40,996 nt of DNA from a virus, in the IMG/VR virus record IMGVR_UViG_3300025117_000137, positions 1 through 40,996 of that record; one strand, written 5' to 3'. Positions within the stretch are counted from its first letter, which is position 1. Each line of letters starts with the position of its first letter. Both the position numbers and the translations under genes were made by a program. Positions 13,464-40,996 of the stretch are shown piece after piece. Under the pieces are notes generated by a model, which was not told the origin of the DNA, searched no databases, and saw only the letters and a program-made list of their open reading frames with translations.

Positions 13464-13951
13464 TCCTCAACCTCCTGTTTTGATTGTTGTTTTCCCCCAC
13501 GGCCTCGCGGCCTGAGCGCTTCAAACCCCTGGAGCAAAAACCGCGCGGCCCACTCGATGCAGACGTGGCGCGGCCCCCCGAAAATCACCGGATAGCCGTA
13601 GTCACGAGTGATGGCGAACGTGGCGCCCATGACAGACGCCGGGTGCGCCTGTGACTGGTAGTAGTGGCGATACACGTCCTCGGCCGTCCCCTCGATGATG
13701 ATGCAGCCGTAGGCGCTGGAGTCCAGTCCCCGTTGTAACTCCGCTAAAAAGCGCTCCCTTTGGAGTATGACCGACCCCACGAAATCATCGAGGTTTTTGC
13801 GCTCGACGAACAGGCGGTCCTCATATCCGGCGAGCGAGTAGTCTCCCACCGGGAGGGCCGCCCGGACCGGGCCGTCGAACGGCCCGCCGGCGGGGAACGC
13901 CCATGGGTGCTGTTCCCGGGTGTCTATGATTATGATCGGCTTACTCTTCAT
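13460..13951 (-). CDS. ERCC4-type nuclease
   Basis: A 163-residue protein with the XPF/MUS81 (ERCC4) nuclease fold. The strand IIIIDTREQHPW (residues 6-17) carries the first acidic residue, GDYSLAG the second part, and VERKNLDDFVGS the ERKxxxD catalytic signature near residue 50. It is about the length of stand-alone phage ERCC4 nucleases and lacks the HhH tail of the cellular enzymes. It is expected to cut branched or flap DNA. Its start overlaps the end of the alanine-rich gene by 11 bases; RecT- and RecE-like genes lie just upstream. Confidence 0.85.
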   Translation of the reverse strand: MKSKPIIIIDTREQHPWAFPAGGPFDGPVRAALPVGDYSLAGYEDRLFVERKNLDDFVGSVILQRERFLAELQRGLDSSAYGCIIIEGTAEDVYRHYYQSQAHPASVMGATFAITRDYGYPVIFGGPRHVCIEWAARFLLQGFEALRPRGRGGKQQSKQEVEE

Positions 13952-14507
13952 TGGAGTAATACTTTCTGTATATCACCGCTGCTTTTTTCCAGGCGGCGGC
14001 CCTGGCGGCGGTCCAGGCGGCGGCCCAGGCGGCGGCCCTGGCGGCGTCCCAGGCGGCGGCCCTGGCGGCGGCCCTGGCGGCGGCCCCGGCGGCGTCCCAG
14101 GCGGCGGCCCTGGCGGCGGCCCCGGCGGCGTCCCAGGCGGCGTCCCTGGCGGCGGCCCCGGCGGCGGCCAGCTCCAATGCCGTCGCCGCTCCAGCGGCGT
14201 ACCGCCGCGAGGTCTCCACTGCCACTCGGGGCCTGGGGTCATCTGGGTATATTTTCTCCCACACGGTGAGCGCAATCTGCTCCACCAAATCGCAAGAGAA
14301 AAGCCTCGCCGTTTTTTCGGCGTCCGGGTGCAGGTCCGCCCGCAGCGCCCAGACCGCATCCTGTATCCCGTTGATCTCCAGTATCCGCGAAAGCAGGATC
14401 GGCGCATCATCGCCCCAGTCAGGGCCGAGCGCGGCAACCAGATGCTCGTATCGATCCCGGCAGGCTTTTTTTTCGCGCAGTTGCGCCAACGTCGTGTAAT
14501 GATTCAT
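13941..14507 (-). CDS. Alanine-rich repeat protein
   Basis: A 188-residue protein. Residues 1-110 form a normal globular, mostly helical region (MNHYTTLAQLREKKACRDRY; WEKIYPDDPRPR). Residues 112-172 are a low-complexity array of four-residue units built from A, A, A and one of W, R, G or D (AAWDAAGAAARAAAWDAAR), and the tail is basic and aromatic (IYRKYYSNEE). Similar AW/AR-rich arrays occur in phage and bacterial proteins sometimes labelled Imm5-like, with no established role here. The strand is chosen because the frame has a real start, ribosome site and non-repeat flanks. The array is encoded by 12-bp DNA repeats. Confidence 0.65.
   Translation of the reverse strand: MNHYTTLAQLREKKACRDRYEHLVAALGPDWGDDAPILLSRILEINGIQDAVWALRADLHPDAEKTARLFSCDLVEQIALTVWEKIYPDDPRPRVAVETSRRYAAGAATALELAAAGAAARDAAWDAAGAAARAAAWDAAGAAARAAARAAAWDAARAAAWAAAWTAARAAAWKKAAVIYRKYYSNEE
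13989..14169. repeat. 12-bp GC-rich tandem repeat array (about 15 units)
   Basis: Plus-strand units vary around CAGGCGGCGGCC and CTGGCGGCGGCC, about 15 in tandem, inside the alanine-rich gene. Changes in unit number keep the reading frame because the unit is four codons. The run of GGCGGC could form unusual DNA structure. The six frames are open over this stretch, which creates large shadow ORFs. Confidence 0.85.
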
Positions 14508-16462: not shown

Positions 16463-16912
16463 TCATTCATTTGTTGCTCCTATGTAGTTATTATAGTATT
16501 CTTCATGTATGAATCTTTTCCACGTTTCAAGGCGCTCCGTGTCATCCCCAAACCAACTGTCCAGTACGGTATACGATAGGCGGATACGGGAGGCATTGAT
16601 ATTGGCGGCGAGTGTTGGACTACTTTTTAATATCACTTTATCGAAATCTAACTTTGGCGATTCCGACCTGCGCTCCATCTGGCAATCGAAGAGCTTGTAA
16701 TTACAATGGTAATTCCAATTTTCCACGCACTCTGCTATGCTTAATCTGCCCGGATTGCTTACGCCACACTTTAGGCACTTGATGGAATATAACATCTCAA
16801 ACGTTTTGAGTGTGTTCCATTTCAACACTTCTGTTTGTGTTATCAAGTGTGTTGAATTGCATACAGAGCAACGAACAGCATTTTTTAAGCACGCCTGCCG
16901 CGCTTTACTCAT
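16463..16912 (-). CDS. AT-rich zinc-ribbon protein (N-terminus Lar-like)
   Basis: A 149-residue protein with N-terminal CSVCNSTHL, then CLKCGVSNPG and IAECVENWN. This order matches Lar-type zinc ribbons, where CxxC, CxxCG and an alpha-helix ending in WN are usual. More Cys follow (HCNYKLFDC), then an unassigned C-terminal half. Codon choice and base composition are clearly more AT-rich than in the flanking genes, which suggests recent acquisition. Its ATG overlaps the preceding stop by eight bases. Lar proteins relieve host restriction; that role here is only a possibility. Confidence 0.6.
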   Translation of the reverse strand: MSKARQACLKNAVRCSVCNSTHLITQTEVLKWNTLKTFEMLYSIKCLKCGVSNPGRLSIAECVENWNYHCNYKLFDCQMERRSESPKLDFDKVILKSSPTLAANINASRIRLSYTVLDSWFGDDTERLETWKRFIHEEYYNNYIGATNE

Positions 16913-17958: not shown

Positions 17959-18237
17959 CTATAAAGCTGGCTCCGCTCCAGTCCCCACAGGCCCGCCGCT
18001 AGGCGTTGGCGTCGGCGTCGGAGCATCCGCCAGGTCAGCCCGGCCGTCCGCCAGCGCGATGATCCAGGCCAGTTCGGCGGCGTGCCTCTCGGCCGTCTCC
18101 TCCCGCGTCGGCGGCCTGGTATCGGTGAGCAGCCGCGAGACGTAGGCGTCGGTCTTGCCCATCGCGGTCGCTATCGCCCGCTGGGTGATTCCGCGCCGGT
18201 CCAGTGCGGCGCGTAAGTCGTGGACATCGTTGAACAT
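17959..18237 (-). CDS. Cro/CI-type HTH DNA-binding protein
   Basis: A 92-residue protein with an XRE-type helix-turn-helix: LRAALDRRGITQRAIATAMGKTDAYVSRLLTDTR (residues 8-41) fits the five-helix Cro/CI pattern with recognition helix near DAYVSRLL. A second helical segment and a Pro/Thr/Gly-rich tail follow (TPTPTPSGGP). It is the fourth gene of the leftward unit. It could bind the inverted repeats of the control region, such as GTGATAATCATCAC at 19361 or the early-promoter palindrome. Which of these it recognises cannot be read from sequence. Confidence 0.75.
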   Translation of the reverse strand: MFNDVHDLRAALDRRGITQRAIATAMGKTDAYVSRLLTDTRPPTREETAERHAAELAWIIALADGRADLADAPTPTPTPSGGPVGTGAEPAL

Positions 18238-18860: not shown

Positions 18861-18911
18861 CGTCTCTCTCCTCGGTTTTTGTTTTCAGTTTCTCTCGCTC
18901 CATCTTTTTTA

Positions 18912-18940
18912 ATCGTATACCATCGGTTATCCGCTGTCAA
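18912..18940 (-). promoter_or_regulatory. Leftward early promoter (PL-like)
   Basis: On the minus strand: TTGACA (-35, 18935-18940), then TATACG at 18914-18919 and overlapping TACGAT at 18912-18917. The spacing is 15 bp to TATACG or 17 bp to TACGAT. It points into the leftward operon, starting about 45 bases before the first ATG. The region from -35 through the -10 and the following GATGGAGCG is nearly repeated at 36098-36133 in front of the HTH gene of the tail operon. Confidence 0.75.
18917..18930. promoter_or_regulatory. Imperfect operator palindrome in the early promoter
   Basis: The plus strand reads ATACCATCGGTTAT; the minus strand is ATAACCGATGGTAT. It overlaps the spacer and -10, the position of a repressor operator. 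It corresponds to the perfect palindrome ATACCGACGGTAT at 36109-36121, with one base inserted and one changed. Confidence 0.6.
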
Positions 18941-19624
18941 CTGTTTTCGACAACTATTTTCGGTTTTTATTTGTCAACAATTTCCAGTGGTTACGCCAAA
19001 CTGGCGGTCTTTCAGCCGGCCAGGTGGAGAAAAAATCGGCGCCGCCAGGGCCGAAAACCGCCCGGCTGGGGCTCCACCGGGCCGGATCCGACCCGGATTT
19101 GACGCCAAGACCGGTAACCACCCGGAATCTCTGGCGTTTTCCCGGCCGGAGCGCTCCGAGGGGGCGGAAGACGTGGCAAAATGAATGAGATTCATCACAT
19201 CGTCACGTCGTTGTGATAATTTTTTGACGCCAAAATTCTCAACGAATACGCCAAGTTACGGAGTTGGAGACCCGTTTGTGATGGACGTGATGAAAAAATC
19301 TAGTACTTACCGCGCCTGCGCGCGCTCGCGTACGCGCGCACGCACAGGCAACAGGTTTCCGTGATAATCATCACAATATCACGGAATCGGTCAACCACCC
19401 GGAATCACTCAAGAAAAGTACGTGATAATTTTTGTGGCGGTGACTAGAAATTCTCAAAATGATACAAAAAAACCAAAACGGCCGGATATGCGTGCGTTAC
19501 ACCCTCCGTCACGCCCCACTGAAAAATACGCCTAAAAACAAACACTTGCAAACTAAGGATAACAGAACTGGATACAAACAAATCGGCGGGATACGCCAAA
19601 AAAACAAATACGTTGCGTTTTTTG
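18941..19624. other. Gene-free control region, candidate origin
   Basis: No credible gene is seen here; open frames are short, lack ribosome sites and lie across AT-rich tracts. It holds repeated short elements. ACGCCAA occurs at 18993, 19102, 19227, 19248 and 19593, always on the plus strand. AACCACCCGGAATC occurs at 19116-19129 and 19393-19406. A paired element is GTGATAATTTTT followed 8-14 bp later by AAATTCTCAA (19213-19242 and 19422-19457). It also has a dense GTGAT cluster and an alternating purine-pyrimidine GC tract (about 19311-19347). Divergent promoters flank it, which fits a replication origin plus switch region. Confidence 0.6.
19194..19426. repeat. Cluster of nine GTGAT/ATCAC words
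   Basis: GTGAT occurs at 19213, 19278, 19287, 19361 and 19422, and ATCAC at 19194, 19370, 19378 and 19404: nine in 233 bp. About half of one would be expected by chance for a 5-mer on both strands. One pair forms the perfect inverted repeat GTGATAATCATCAC (19361-19374). The layout suggests binding sites for a phage regulator or initiator. Confidence 0.75.
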
Positions 19625-19653
19625 TTGCGCGGCGAAAAAATATCGCATATAAT
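19625..19653 (+). promoter_or_regulatory. Rightward promoter before the 19711 gene
   Basis: Perfect -10 hexamer TATAAT at 19648-19653. A weak -35 TTGCGC at 19625-19630 gives a 17-bp spacing, with AT-rich sequence just upstream. The expected start is near 19660, 50 bases before the ATG at 19711. This would be the promoter of the rightward unit unless terminase has its own (see 20050). Confidence 0.6.
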
Positions 19654-19710
19654 CATGAGTATTGGTCATCCGCGCAACGGATGGTGAAACAAAAACGAGT
19701 GGAGTAAATA

Positions 19711-27085: not shown

Positions 27086-27101
27086 GGGGGCTCCAGCCCC
27101 C
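27086..27101 (+). terminator. Hairpin before the major capsid gene
   Basis: The stem-loop GGGGGCTCCAGCCCCC (6-bp stem, loop TCCA) is followed by ATTTTG, a short T run. It lies between the cement-fibre and capsid genes and could be a weak terminator or an mRNA end-protector that sets capsid expression. It nearly matches the 18662-18677 hairpin. Confidence 0.5.
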
Positions 27102-27123
27102 ATTTTGAAAGGTATACGCAAAA

Positions 27124-34643: not shown

Positions 34644-35226
34644 GTTCCCTCAATCCACCATCGCCCAAATCGCCACTGTTAATTTTCTTTACTACACGGA
34701 TAAGCTTGACGATCTGGCGGAAATTTCGCTCTATCCGAGCGACGCGCCAAACACGCCGATCAAGCTTCCGGGCCTCTGGGCGGGTGAGGACGTGACGGAT
34801 TCTTGGCGCGCCGACGCTATCCAAATCCTGGGAGCGGACGGCGTGCTGCTACAGGAGCGGGGTCGCGCCCCGTTGCGCATTCGACTGCGGCGGCTGCTGC
34901 TCTCCGACCGGACGATTGAAAATCTCACGTCTGGCGCACTGGTAGAGGGCGGCCTGGCGCTGGCGGAAGCGATGGGGCTGGAGGTCGGCAACCGGACCTG
35001 CTACGACGAACTGCGGGATATTGTTGATATTTTCAGGCGGTTTGACTCCATAAGCGGAGCCCGGGCCATCTGGCGCATCGACTCCGAGCTTGCGAACATT
35101 TACGGCCTAGACAAAATCGTCTTCGTGTCGCACAACATGCGCAACCCGCCCGGCGCCGAGTGGATGGAGGTCTCCCTGGACTTCGAGGAGTATACTGAAT
35201 TTAACATTGATTTCTCCTCGCCATGA
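34636..35226 (+). CDS. Baseplate-hub associated protein (Mu gpN position)
   Basis: A 196-residue protein starting at ATG 34636 inside the tape-measure end (8-base overlap). It sits between the tape measure and gpP-like genes, where Mu encodes gpN, the DNA-circulation-type hub protein. The N-terminus is mixed (TIAQIATVNFLYYTDKLDDLAEISLYPS) and it ends VSLDFEEYTEFNIDF. I do not recognise clear DNA-circulation motifs, so the family call is by position only. Confidence 0.5.
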   Translation: MPEFPQSTIAQIATVNFLYYTDKLDDLAEISLYPSDAPNTPIKLPGLWAGEDVTDSWRADAIQILGADGVLLQERGRAPLRIRLRRLLLSDRTIENLTSGALVEGGLALAEAMGLEVGNRTCYDELRDIVDIFRRFDSISGARAIWRIDSELANIYGLDKIVFVSHNMRNPPGAEWMEVSLDFEEYTEFNIDFSSP

Positions 35227-36101
35227 GCCGCATATCCCTACGCCGCCCCTACGCCACGGTGACAGTGGCCGGCCGCGCGCTGCCTATCGTTGGCGTTGAC
35301 CTGACCGTCGGGAGATACCACAAGGCGGACTTCGGGTCGTTTCAACTTCCCGACGATTTCCGCTGGGCGGCCGATGAGACGTACCCGGCGCCCTACAGCC
35401 CGGTGACCGTGGAAATGGGATATGCCGATGAGCCCACTACTGTACGCCAGTTCAGCATGTTCACAAGCGACACGCCTGCGCGCAATGGGATGATCGACAT
35501 CAAGGACAAGTGGTTTGAACTGGGCGCCAAATTCATGCTCTTGACCGGCAAAGTTTCTTACAAAAACGTTACCCTGGATCAGGTTGTTCGTCATGTTTTA
35601 ACTTTCGCCGGAGTTCGGGATATTTATGTCGGCCAATACGCTATAGTCAAGCCAATGTGGAATGGCTACAACATGACCGTTCAGCAGGCGATTGAGCAGG
35701 CGTCGCAGGACTGGGGCGTCCAGCCGCCGATATTTTTTGACCGCGCCGGGGGGTTCTTTTTCGGCGCGGAAATATCCGCATCCGCGTTCAGTAAGCCCAC
35801 AACCACCACGTTCGTCGAGCGCCAGAATATCATGGGGCAACCTGAAGCGGATACACGCCGCCTCTCCTACGATATGATCGAGACGGGTGCGGAGCCGACG
35901 ATTGGCCAGCAGTGGGATGAGGCGCACCAGGAGCAGGAGATACCCTACTGGCGGCTCCCCGTGGTTTTCGCGCCATGGATATGGCATGGCGATACCGTGC
36001 GGGTGGACCACTCTCGGCTGTCGGGGACGTTCCGGGTCGCGTCGGCGTCGCACGGCTCTAGGCCCTGGGGGACCGTATTGGAGCTTGAAAAAATAGCTTG
36101 A
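35223..36101 (+). CDS. Baseplate hub protein (Mu gpP / P2 gpD-like)
   Basis: A 292-residue hub protein of the late-control D family: opening SLRRPYATVTVAGRALPIVGVDLTVG, then a region KVSYKNVTLDQVVRHVLTFAGV that matches the hub's Phage GPD LysM-like segments, and NMTVQQAIEQASQDWGVQPPIFFD. It ends with the SGTFRVASASHG strand. It overlaps the gpN-like gene by four bases. Its stop overlaps the -35 of the promoter at 36098. Confidence 0.78.
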   Translation: MSRISLRRPYATVTVAGRALPIVGVDLTVGRYHKADFGSFQLPDDFRWAADETYPAPYSPVTVEMGYADEPTTVRQFSMFTSDTPARNGMIDIKDKWFELGAKFMLLTGKVSYKNVTLDQVVRHVLTFAGVRDIYVGQYAIVKPMWNGYNMTVQQAIEQASQDWGVQPPIFFDRAGGFFFGAEISASAFSKPTTTTFVERQNIMGQPEADTRRLSYDMIETGAEPTIGQQWDEAHQEQEIPYWRLPVVFAPWIWHGDTVRVDHSRLSGTFRVASASHGSRPWGTVLELEKIA

Positions 36102-36126
36102 CAGGCGCATACCGACGGTATACGAT
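36098..36126 (+). promoter_or_regulatory. Promoter of the HTH gene inside the tail operon
   Basis: TTGACA at 36098-36103, TATACG at 36119-36124 and TACGAT at 36121-36126 (17-bp spacing to the latter). It lies at the end of the hub gene and points to the HTH gene at 36146. It is close to the early promoter at 18912-18940: both have TTGACA, an ATA...CC-GA-GG-TAT palindrome, TATACGAT, and then GGAGCG. The early copy has about ten extra bases before GGAGCG. Confidence 0.7.
36109..36121. promoter_or_regulatory. Perfect 13-bp operator palindrome
   Basis: ATACCGACGGTAT (arms ATACCG/CGGTAT around a central A) overlaps the spacer and -10, a position that would block RNA polymerase. It precedes an HTH gene, so the simplest reading is autorepression; the same protein could act on the early promoter. 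Confidence 0.65.
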
Positions 36127-36145: not shown

Positions 36146-36445
36146 ATGGACGCAAAAATCACGGTCCTGACCATCCCCGGGCAGCCGCCCATCGTCTGGG
36201 ACGTGGCGCGGGCGGAATGGCAATCCGATCTGTATGCTGGTCTGGACTCCACCCGCGTCCAGGCCGACGCCTGGGAGCGGGTCATCAAGGCCGCCGGCGG
36301 GGCGGCGCATATCGCCCGGGAGCTTGGGGTCTCCCCCGTCACCGTCTACCGCTGGCGGCGCCAGGAGCGCCACCCAAAGGCGATCTATATCAGGGATGGT
36401 CTGGCGCGGCTGATACGGGAGAGGGGGGGCCGTCATGAGCGCTGA
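36146..36445 (+). CDS. HTH regulator embedded in the tail operon
   Basis: A 99-residue protein from ATG 36146, after GGAGG and following the promoter. The C-terminal half has a helix-turn-helix, GGAAHIARELGVSPVTVYRWRRQERHP (residues 51-77), of the Cro/YdaS type, followed by a basic helix. The N-terminal half is a small beta domain (ITVLTIPGQPPIVWDVARAEW). It splits the hub and spike genes, which are neighbours in Mu, so it is an insert. With its own promoter and palindrome it can be expressed outside late time and may act as a repressor. Confidence 0.72.
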   Translation: MDAKITVLTIPGQPPIVWDVARAEWQSDLYAGLDSTRVQADAWERVIKAAGGAAHIARELGVSPVTVYRWRRQERHPKAIYIRDGLARLIRERGGRHER

Positions 36446-37037
36446 CCCCCAGTCCCTGCGACGGGCGTTTTATCACCTCGCCGTCTCCGTTTTCCCGTTT
36501 CTGGAGTCACATTTTCCGCGTCGTTTCACGGGCCGCGCCCGGGTTGTTTCATCCTATTCGGGTACTGCTACTGTCCAGCCGCTGAAAAAAACCGGCGAGG
36601 ATGATACATCCCAGCCGGTCCTCTCCGAAATTCCGCTTCCTGCCTACCTCGCCTCACTCGGGGTAGGCTCCATCGTGCGCATCGCCTATGATTGGTGGGA
36701 CGCCGGTTTCCCGTATGTGCAAGACGTGGTAACGGCTGTCACCCCGCACTGGCAAATGAATACAGCCGGCTCCGAATTGGTCACCTGGGGCAACAGGGTG
36801 AATATGACGGCGGCCACGTCCACCGAGGTTGACTGCCCGGACATCAAGCTGGGAGGGTCTGGCGCGGCCGCGCTACCAGTATTGTATGCTGGCCTGATTG
36901 AGGCGATCACGGCGGCGGCGACTGCGATGGGCGACGGCGGCGCGGCGTTCAAGGCTAACTTGTTGATTGAACTGGCGAAAGTTCCGCCAGTGGAGTGTTT
37001 GGAGCCGCGGAAAACCACCAAGGTCAAGGCGGAATAA
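36435..37037 (+). CDS. Baseplate spike protein (Mu gp45 / P2 gpV-like)
   Basis: A 200-residue protein overlapping the HTH gene by 11 bases. It has an OB-fold-like N-terminal part (RRFTGRARVVSSYSGTATVQPLK, then EIPLPAYLASLGVGSIVRIAYD) and a beta-rich C-terminal part (EVDCPDIKLGGSGAAALPVLYAG) seen in Mu gp45-type spikes. Position after the hub and upstream of the wedge genes fits. It would form the cell-puncturing tip. Confidence 0.7.
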   Translation: MSADPQSLRRAFYHLAVSVFPFLESHFPRRFTGRARVVSSYSGTATVQPLKKTGEDDTSQPVLSEIPLPAYLASLGVGSIVRIAYDWWDAGFPYVQDVVTAVTPHWQMNTAGSELVTWGNRVNMTAATSTEVDCPDIKLGGSGAAALPVLYAGLIEAITAAATAMGDGGAAFKANLLIELAKVPPVECLEPRKTTKVKAE

Positions 37038-37039
37038 TA

Positions 37040-37342
37040 ATGTTTCGGATACCAAAATTAATATGGTCACCTCTGGAGATAATCACGACTCAGTATTCAA
37101 GAAATCGTATCACAAAACCATGTTTTTGTGATTTTAGATCCTTTGTTTTCCAGGGGCAATTTCGTGTCGCCGAATGCCTGGAAGATTATCATCCCGAGGT
37201 GCGGCAGAAATGTGATTACCTGCGGGACGGGTTGACGTGGCTTGAATGTGAGAGTGGAGGCGCAGACGACGTAAACATGAACAATTTCCATAAGGTGGAA
37301 AAGTACGTCGATGAAGGTTTGGACTTTGGTCCCTATTTTTAA
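37040..37342 (+). CDS. AT-rich small Cys protein, function unknown
   Basis: A 100-residue protein from ATG 37040. It has CFCDF near residue 28 and further Cys (AECLEDYHP, QKCDYLRDG, LECESGG). The coding sequence is distinctly AT-richer than neighbours, like the small Cys genes between the fibre genes, so it may share their origin. It lies between the spike gene and the lysis block. No family recognised. Confidence 0.55.
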   Translation: MFRIPKLIWSPLEIITTQYSRNRITKPCFCDFRSFVFQGQFRVAECLEDYHPEVRQKCDYLRDGLTWLECESGGADDVNMNNFHKVEKYVDEGLDFGPYF

Positions 37343-40501: not shown

Positions 40502-40914
40502 CAACCACAACCCCAAACACAATCGACTGGTATCACGGCCCAACCGGCTTAGAGGTGCGAGGCTCCGGCGAACTGCGACCCACGGACGGCATACTCCGCG
40601 CCGCCGCACAGTCCATCGCCCATGATCTGGAGCAACCGCTGGGGTCCATGATCTGGGATGAGGAGGCCGCCCCGTTCGAGGTCGCGGCCGAGGGGAGCCG
40701 CCTGCCCATGATGGTCGGCCAGGACCTGAACGCCGGCTGGGTCCGGTCCTGTCGCCGCGAGGTATCCCGCGTCGCCCGCCTGCCCCGCTGGCGCGACTGG
40801 GTGGAGTCCGCCGACATCGTGGACATCCGCGCCGACGGCGACGCCGTGTCCTTCACCATCGCCGTCGCCGCCGGCGGCGCCGTCATCACCGCCACTTCCC
40901 GGATAGGAGGTTGA
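40498..40914 (+). CDS. Mu gp46-like baseplate wedge protein
   Basis: A 138-residue GP46/gpW-type baseplate protein directly before the gp47-like gene, as in Mu. It has the conserved middle part WDEEAAPFEVAAEG and DLNAGWVRSCRREVSRVARL, and it ends in a beta strand SFTIAVAAGGAVITATS. Overlaps the previous gene by four bases. Its end is seen again at bases 3-53. Confidence 0.75.
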   Translation: MTTTTPNTIDWYHGPTGLEVRGSGELRPTDGILRAAAQSIAHDLEQPLGSMIWDEEAAPFEVAAEGSRLPMMVGQDLNAGWVRSCRREVSRVARLPRWRDWVESADIVDIRADGDAVSFTIAVAAGGAVITATSRIGG

Positions 40915-40996
40915 CCAATGCCTGACTGGCGCACGATCACCGGCGCGAAAACCGCCGCCGAACTGCTCACCGAGGGGCGGGACCTGTTGCGCTCTT
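40871..40996. repeat. Right copy of the 126-bp terminal direct repeat
   Basis: Identical to 10-135. It shows the ends of the sequence overlap, so the genome is circular or circularly permuted. The copy holds the last bases of the gp46-like gene and the first of the gp47-like gene. Confidence 0.9.
40918..40996 (+). CDS. 5' end of the gp47-like baseplate gene, cut by the window end
   Basis: The first 26 codons of the same gene annotated at 57-1256, present again because of the terminal overlap. ATG 40918 follows GGAGG. It is not a second gene. Confidence 0.85.
   Translation, partial: MPDWRTITGAKTAAELLTEGRDLLRS

Follow-up and report, generated by a model that had tools for sequence, protein, structure and literature searches.

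A small HTH gene lies between a tail hub-like gene and a spike/baseplate-like gene of the virus record IMGVR_UViG_3300025117_000137, which we analyzed over its whole length of 40,996 nt (hereafter the window; Table 1). It stands just behind a 44-bp gap, one of the few real gaps in a tightly packed late operon (median intergenic gap of -4), and this gap holds a predicted sigma-70-type promoter whose 5' end overlaps the stop codon of the hub gene. The initial annotation had described a gene of 99 residues interrupting the hub and spike genes, and this gene proved to be real in outline: the ORF matches HTH profiles, has a GGAGG Shine-Dalgarno and overlaps the next start with its stop, by 11 bp, while its removal would leave a 333-bp hole in the operon. 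The profiles matched are carph-isopro (1.9e-7), the phrog_35 repressor (1.8e-6), YdaS_toxin (6e-6) and P22_Cro (0.003), those from Pfam and NCBIfam all falling below curated cut-offs (26.4 bits versus 30 for YdaS_toxin, and 17.9 bits versus 30.2 for P22_Cro). An AlphaFold model made without an alignment had a pLDDT of 47, too poor for a fold search, and a PDB sequence search gave nothing useful. The GC3 of the gene (0.82) is not foreign, and no terminator was found after it. Directly 3' of the spike gene, a 100-residue ORF (37040-37342) of 43% GC and GC3 0.50, in an operon of 60-65% GC, has no relative in any library searched and looks like a recently acquired moron.

The last 126 bases of the window are an exact repeat of bases 10-135 (10-135 = 40871-40996); in all likelihood, therefore, we have here the complete, circularized genome of a phage of about 40.9 kb. 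Its genes form two blocks. The leftward one (about 18860 to 6564) encodes DNA metabolism (primase, RecD-like helicase, ERCC4 nuclease, RecT and exonuclease VIII), and the rightward one, from 19711, runs through terminase, portal, capsid, sheath, tape measure, hub, HTH, spike and lysis genes and crosses the join to 6459. We found neither Rfam families nor tRNAs in the window, no integrase among the early genes scanned, and no divergent repressor gene in the early operon as scanned.

Three other stretches of the genome deserve mention. The divergent region at 18960-19700, of about 750 bp, is AT-richer and contains many short repeats (GTGATAATTTTT, AACCACCCGGAATCWCT and TTTGACGCCAA twice each, and TTCCGTGATA as an inverted pair), and is a candidate origin or control region. 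In an early protein (ORF 13941-14507, minus), 12-bp tandem repeats at 13990-14150 encode a repeated Ala-Ala-rich motif. Finally, a strong stem at 27086-27105 (GGGGGCTCCAGCCCCC, then ATTTT), in the gap just 5' of the capsid gene, is possibly an intra-operon terminator or a processing site.

Table 1. Features of the tail locus and of the early operon, with their positions in the window
Feature	Position	Strand	Remarks
Tail hub-like protein	35223..36101	+	phrog_34501, phrog_196; upstream of the tail promoter
Tail promoter, sigma-70-type, TTGACA-N17-TACGAT	36098..36126	+	TTGACAGGCGCATACCGACGGTATACGAT; promoter-like score 10/12
Perfect palindrome ATACCGACGGTAT	36109..36121	.	Across the spacer and the first base of the -10; candidate operator
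HTH protein gene, 99 residues	36146..36445	+	HTH at residues about 44-79; weakly YdaS / P22 Cro / carph-isopro-like
Spike/baseplate-like gene	36435..37037	+	Weak phrog_27270, phrog_4011; 11-bp overlap with the end of the HTH gene
Leftward early promoter, TTGACA-N17-TACGAT	18912..18940	-	TTGACAGCGGATAACCGATGGTATACGAT; 23/29 bases as in the tail promoter
TAAAAAAGAT insertion relative to the tail copy, then GGAGCG	18896..18911	-	From sequence comparison
Early operon ORF 1, 58 aa	18684..18860	-	No family match
Early-operon HTH_3 protein, 92 aa	17959..18237	-	Alternative candidate ligand of the shared element

Likeness of the tail and early promoters

In both predicted promoters, early and tail, the -35 is perfect, the spacer is 17 bp long and the -10 is the same non-consensus hexamer. 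Read in its own direction, the early promoter is TTGACA GCGGATAACCGATGGTA TACGAT (18940-18912, minus), and the tail promoter is TTGACA GGCGCATACCGACGGTA TACGAT (36098-36126, plus), with a transcript start predicted at about 36133. Both lie at exactly the coordinates given by the initial annotation, and the alignment that it had proposed as a check recovers the common TTGACA and, ungapped, 23 identical bases out of 29. The two 29-mers are each other's best match within the window (the next best reaches 18/29). In simulated Markov windows the top match was 21/29, and at least 23 was obtained in 0/150 per query (0/300 overall). The likeness extends outside the hexamers, with 11 of the 17 spacer bases in common (P about 0.0015 against random 17-mer pairs of the window), the highest value among 45 pairs of promoter-like N17 sites. 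Promoter scans gave only these two sites with a full TTGACA, a 17-bp spacer and a score of 10/12, which for the tail promoter is also the best promoter-like score in the right half of the window. When all upstream regions were aligned with gaps, the pair ranked 3rd of 1653; it is therefore the ungapped, promoter-anchored match that carries the evidence, and not a unique gapped score. The comparison of sequences supports a promoter common to both sites, with the common core ACCGAYGGTATACGAT. Two candidates for a further copy, GTATACGAT at 16569 and GGTATAC at 27111, were rejected because they have no -35 at the right spacing.

The similarity reaches beyond the promoters themselves. GGAGCG follows the -10 in both copies, and the ten or so extra bases that had been noticed ahead of it in the early copy are exactly ten (TAAAAAAGAT). 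This 10-bp difference is flanked by two GAT triplets (TACGAT-TAAAAAAGAT-GGAGCG) and fits one slip or deletion within a duplicated stretch. In the tail promoter GGAGCG belongs to the discriminator, and in the early one to the leader; since it is differently placed relative to the start point, a common function is unlikely, and common descent of the two sites would be the simpler reading. Because the similarity spans TTGACA to GGAGCG with a single GAT/GAT-flanked indel of 10 bp, duplication appears to be the likelier origin of the promoter pair.

We looked for relatives in IMG/VR (with the HTH, hub, capsid, sheath, terminase and 37040 proteins), in GTDB genomes (HTH and sheath proteins) and in GenBank phages (HTH, hub, terminase, sheath, baseplate J and 37040 proteins), and these queries found no independent relative. 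The sole match was the IMG/VR contig IMGVR_UViG_3300025087_000989, 100% identical over 17124-38181 and at both sites; being the same phage, it gives no comparative evidence on the paired sites. The first 11,715 positions of this contig (1-11715) carry glycosyltransferase, radical SAM and sugar epimerase-like ORFs and other tail genes, and are joined inside the tail-spike gene at window position 2265; the junction is either an assembly chimera or the mark of a tail-spike module exchanged in a sister phage. Eight other viral contigs containing the 16-bp core were set aside: TTGACA was never in place, and their frequency is, by our estimate, roughly that of chance.

Palindrome, shared core and candidate ligands

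The tail copy does contain a perfect palindrome, as had been claimed (ATACCGACGGTAT, 36109-36121). However, palindromes with 6-bp arms and a 1-bp center occur 15 times in the window, so that taken alone it is not significant. The further claim of an inverted repeat overlapping the -10 in both promoters holds for the tail copy and fails for the early one, where in the same register only three of the six arm positions pair (ACC/GGT) and more pairing needs a one-base bulge. The paired promoters, GGAGCG and, in outline, the HTH gene of the original observation were confirmed. What the spacers share is ACCGAYGGTA, and the common core ACCGAYGGTATACGAT is asymmetric. A symmetric operator common to both sites is not supported by the sequences; ACCGAYGGTA in both spacers only suggests a common operator, and a common regulator is possible.

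A protein bound at the palindrome, between -35 and -10, would block the polymerase. Which protein might bind the shared core is another matter, since an HTH_3 protein is encoded in the early operon as well and the binder could be either of the two; the early HTH_3 protein is an equally available candidate ligand.

Proposed regulation and its alternatives

A predicted promoter of the early type before an HTH gene inside the tail operon is supported by the 23/29 identity, the 44-bp gap and the HTH profile matches. The idea of a transplanted promoter/operator survives in its first half, an early-type promoter before an HTH gene between hub and spike, whereas the common operator is only suggested. 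The sequence suggests, and does not prove, that the tail HTH protein helps to time or shut off early gene expression.

The best explanation that we can offer, with a probability of about 0.42, is that the gene encodes a nested, autoregulated and early-expressed HTH repressor, under a promoter of the copied type, that also shuts the early operon. The regulator would be a small one, its gene lying within the late tail operon yet read from a host-sigma-70 promoter of its own; this promoter would derive from, or have been copied to, the early leftward promoter. Unmodified host polymerase would start from both promoters early and simultaneously. The HTH protein would at first come from its own promoter, and read-through of the late operon would later supply more of it. 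The protein would then bind ACCGAYGGTA between -35 and -10 and block the polymerase, limiting its own promoter and shutting the early operon late in infection, like a Cro- or Aca-type repressor.

The arrangement had been presented as a switch. In the sense of lysogeny this is unlikely, and we rejected it: the scanned early operon has neither an integrase nor a divergent repressor gene, and with no integrase among the scanned genes the switch is better read as an early shut-off. A more elaborate version, which we find quite unlikely, is a feedback timer split across the genome, in which the copy of the promoter/operator in the late operon would yield the repressor in two rounds, one early, from the copied promoter, and one with the passage of late transcription. 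The onset of tail synthesis would then itself close the early operon, and no lysogeny switch would be needed. If the nested-repressor reading is right, a very small circuit links late expression to early shut-off in a phage without evident lysogeny genes. It would also illustrate how copying a promoter inside a phage genome can bring a nested gene under early control, and second copies of early promoters in late operons may then mark regulators or anti-defence genes.

Other explanations have to be weighed against this one. One is that the early-operon HTH_3 protein (17959-18237, minus), or else a host regulator, controls the two promoters, the tail HTH protein being a downstream target that acts elsewhere, e.g. 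on late or moron genes. This is rather unlikely. In its favor, the HTH_3 protein is a confident assignment (Pfam E 2e-6, above cut-off; AF2 pLDDT 76), and the asymmetric core ACCGAYGGTATACGAT suits either protein. However, when a small HTH gene of a phage directly follows a promoter that contains an inverted repeat, it usually regulates itself (Aca families, PMC9410906), and it is before the tail HTH gene that the better palindrome stands.

It is also unlikely that the HTH gene is a passenger (moron) and that we are looking at two strong host promoters with no common regulator, the copied one providing early expression independently of late activation and the spacer similarity being a matter of ancestry and not of an operator. 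A similarity that continues past the promoter to GGAGCG with one GAT-flanked indel is indeed what a duplicated stretch would leave, the different placing of GGAGCG relative to the start point is not what functional constraint would produce, and the low-GC gene at 37040-37342 lies two genes downstream. Against this, the core ACCGAYGGTA was kept while flanking spacer bases diverged, there is no terminator after the HTH gene, and its GC3 is not foreign. Last, that the two sites match by chance, or have converged on a strong host promoter, with a coincidental palindrome and a tail site that may not fire, is very improbable: although 6-bp-arm palindromes are common here, 8 of 100 shuffles reached two 16-bp-core matches (3 mismatches allowed) and the gapped comparison puts the pair only 3rd, the anchored ungapped match well exceeds what simulation gave, and at either locus it coincides exactly with a gap at the start of a gene.

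Comparison with known systems

Regulatory genes amid the tail genes of a late operon are known from P22, where immI (mnt-arc-ant) lies between genes 16 and 9 and is separately expressed (PMC8022706). The phage studied here has a promoter-like site and an HTH gene inside its late operon. However, this is a single HTH gene between hub and spike, in contrast to the ribbon-helix-helix Arc and Mnt, there is no antirepressor (ant) or divergent promoter, and the promoter-like site is similar to the early one of the same phage. The Aca autorepressors, which are small and of the HTH type, act at inverted repeats inside near-consensus core promoters (PMC9410906). The 99-aa HTH protein is likewise small, and ATACCGACGGTAT at 36109-36121 is an inverted repeat in its own core promoter, of a kind that is common in this genome. 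No acr gene was recognized upstream in the cassette, the next genes being the spike-like one and the orphan low-GC gene at 37040, and none of the protein's matches in Pfam, PHROGs, NCBIfam and PADLOC is an Aca-named family.

A repressor acting on two promoters, as proposed here, also recalls lambda OL/OR, and the HTH protein has weak profile similarity to Cro and YdaS (YdaS_toxin 6e-6, P22_Cro 0.003). The scores are nonetheless below the curated cut-offs, the gene lies in a tail operon, and we found no divergent CI-type or partner repressor and, among the genes scanned, no lysogeny genes. More distant are the Cluster A mycobacteriophages, whose repressor uses dispersed stoperators that include the early promoter Pleft (PMC6550527), with 20-30 asymmetric sites versus only two here. 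In archaeal viruses, an early promoter motif is repeated ahead of dispersed early anti-defence genes (PMC11065993). Our phage likewise has one early promoter element ahead of separate genes, although those promoters are archaeal and present in many copies per virus and ours are two copies in a bacterial phage. It is plausible, by analogy, that the arrangement works like P22 immI and the Aca-type autorepressors, yet its features place it within none of these systems. What distinguishes it from all of them is the copied early promoter before an HTH gene of the tail operon.
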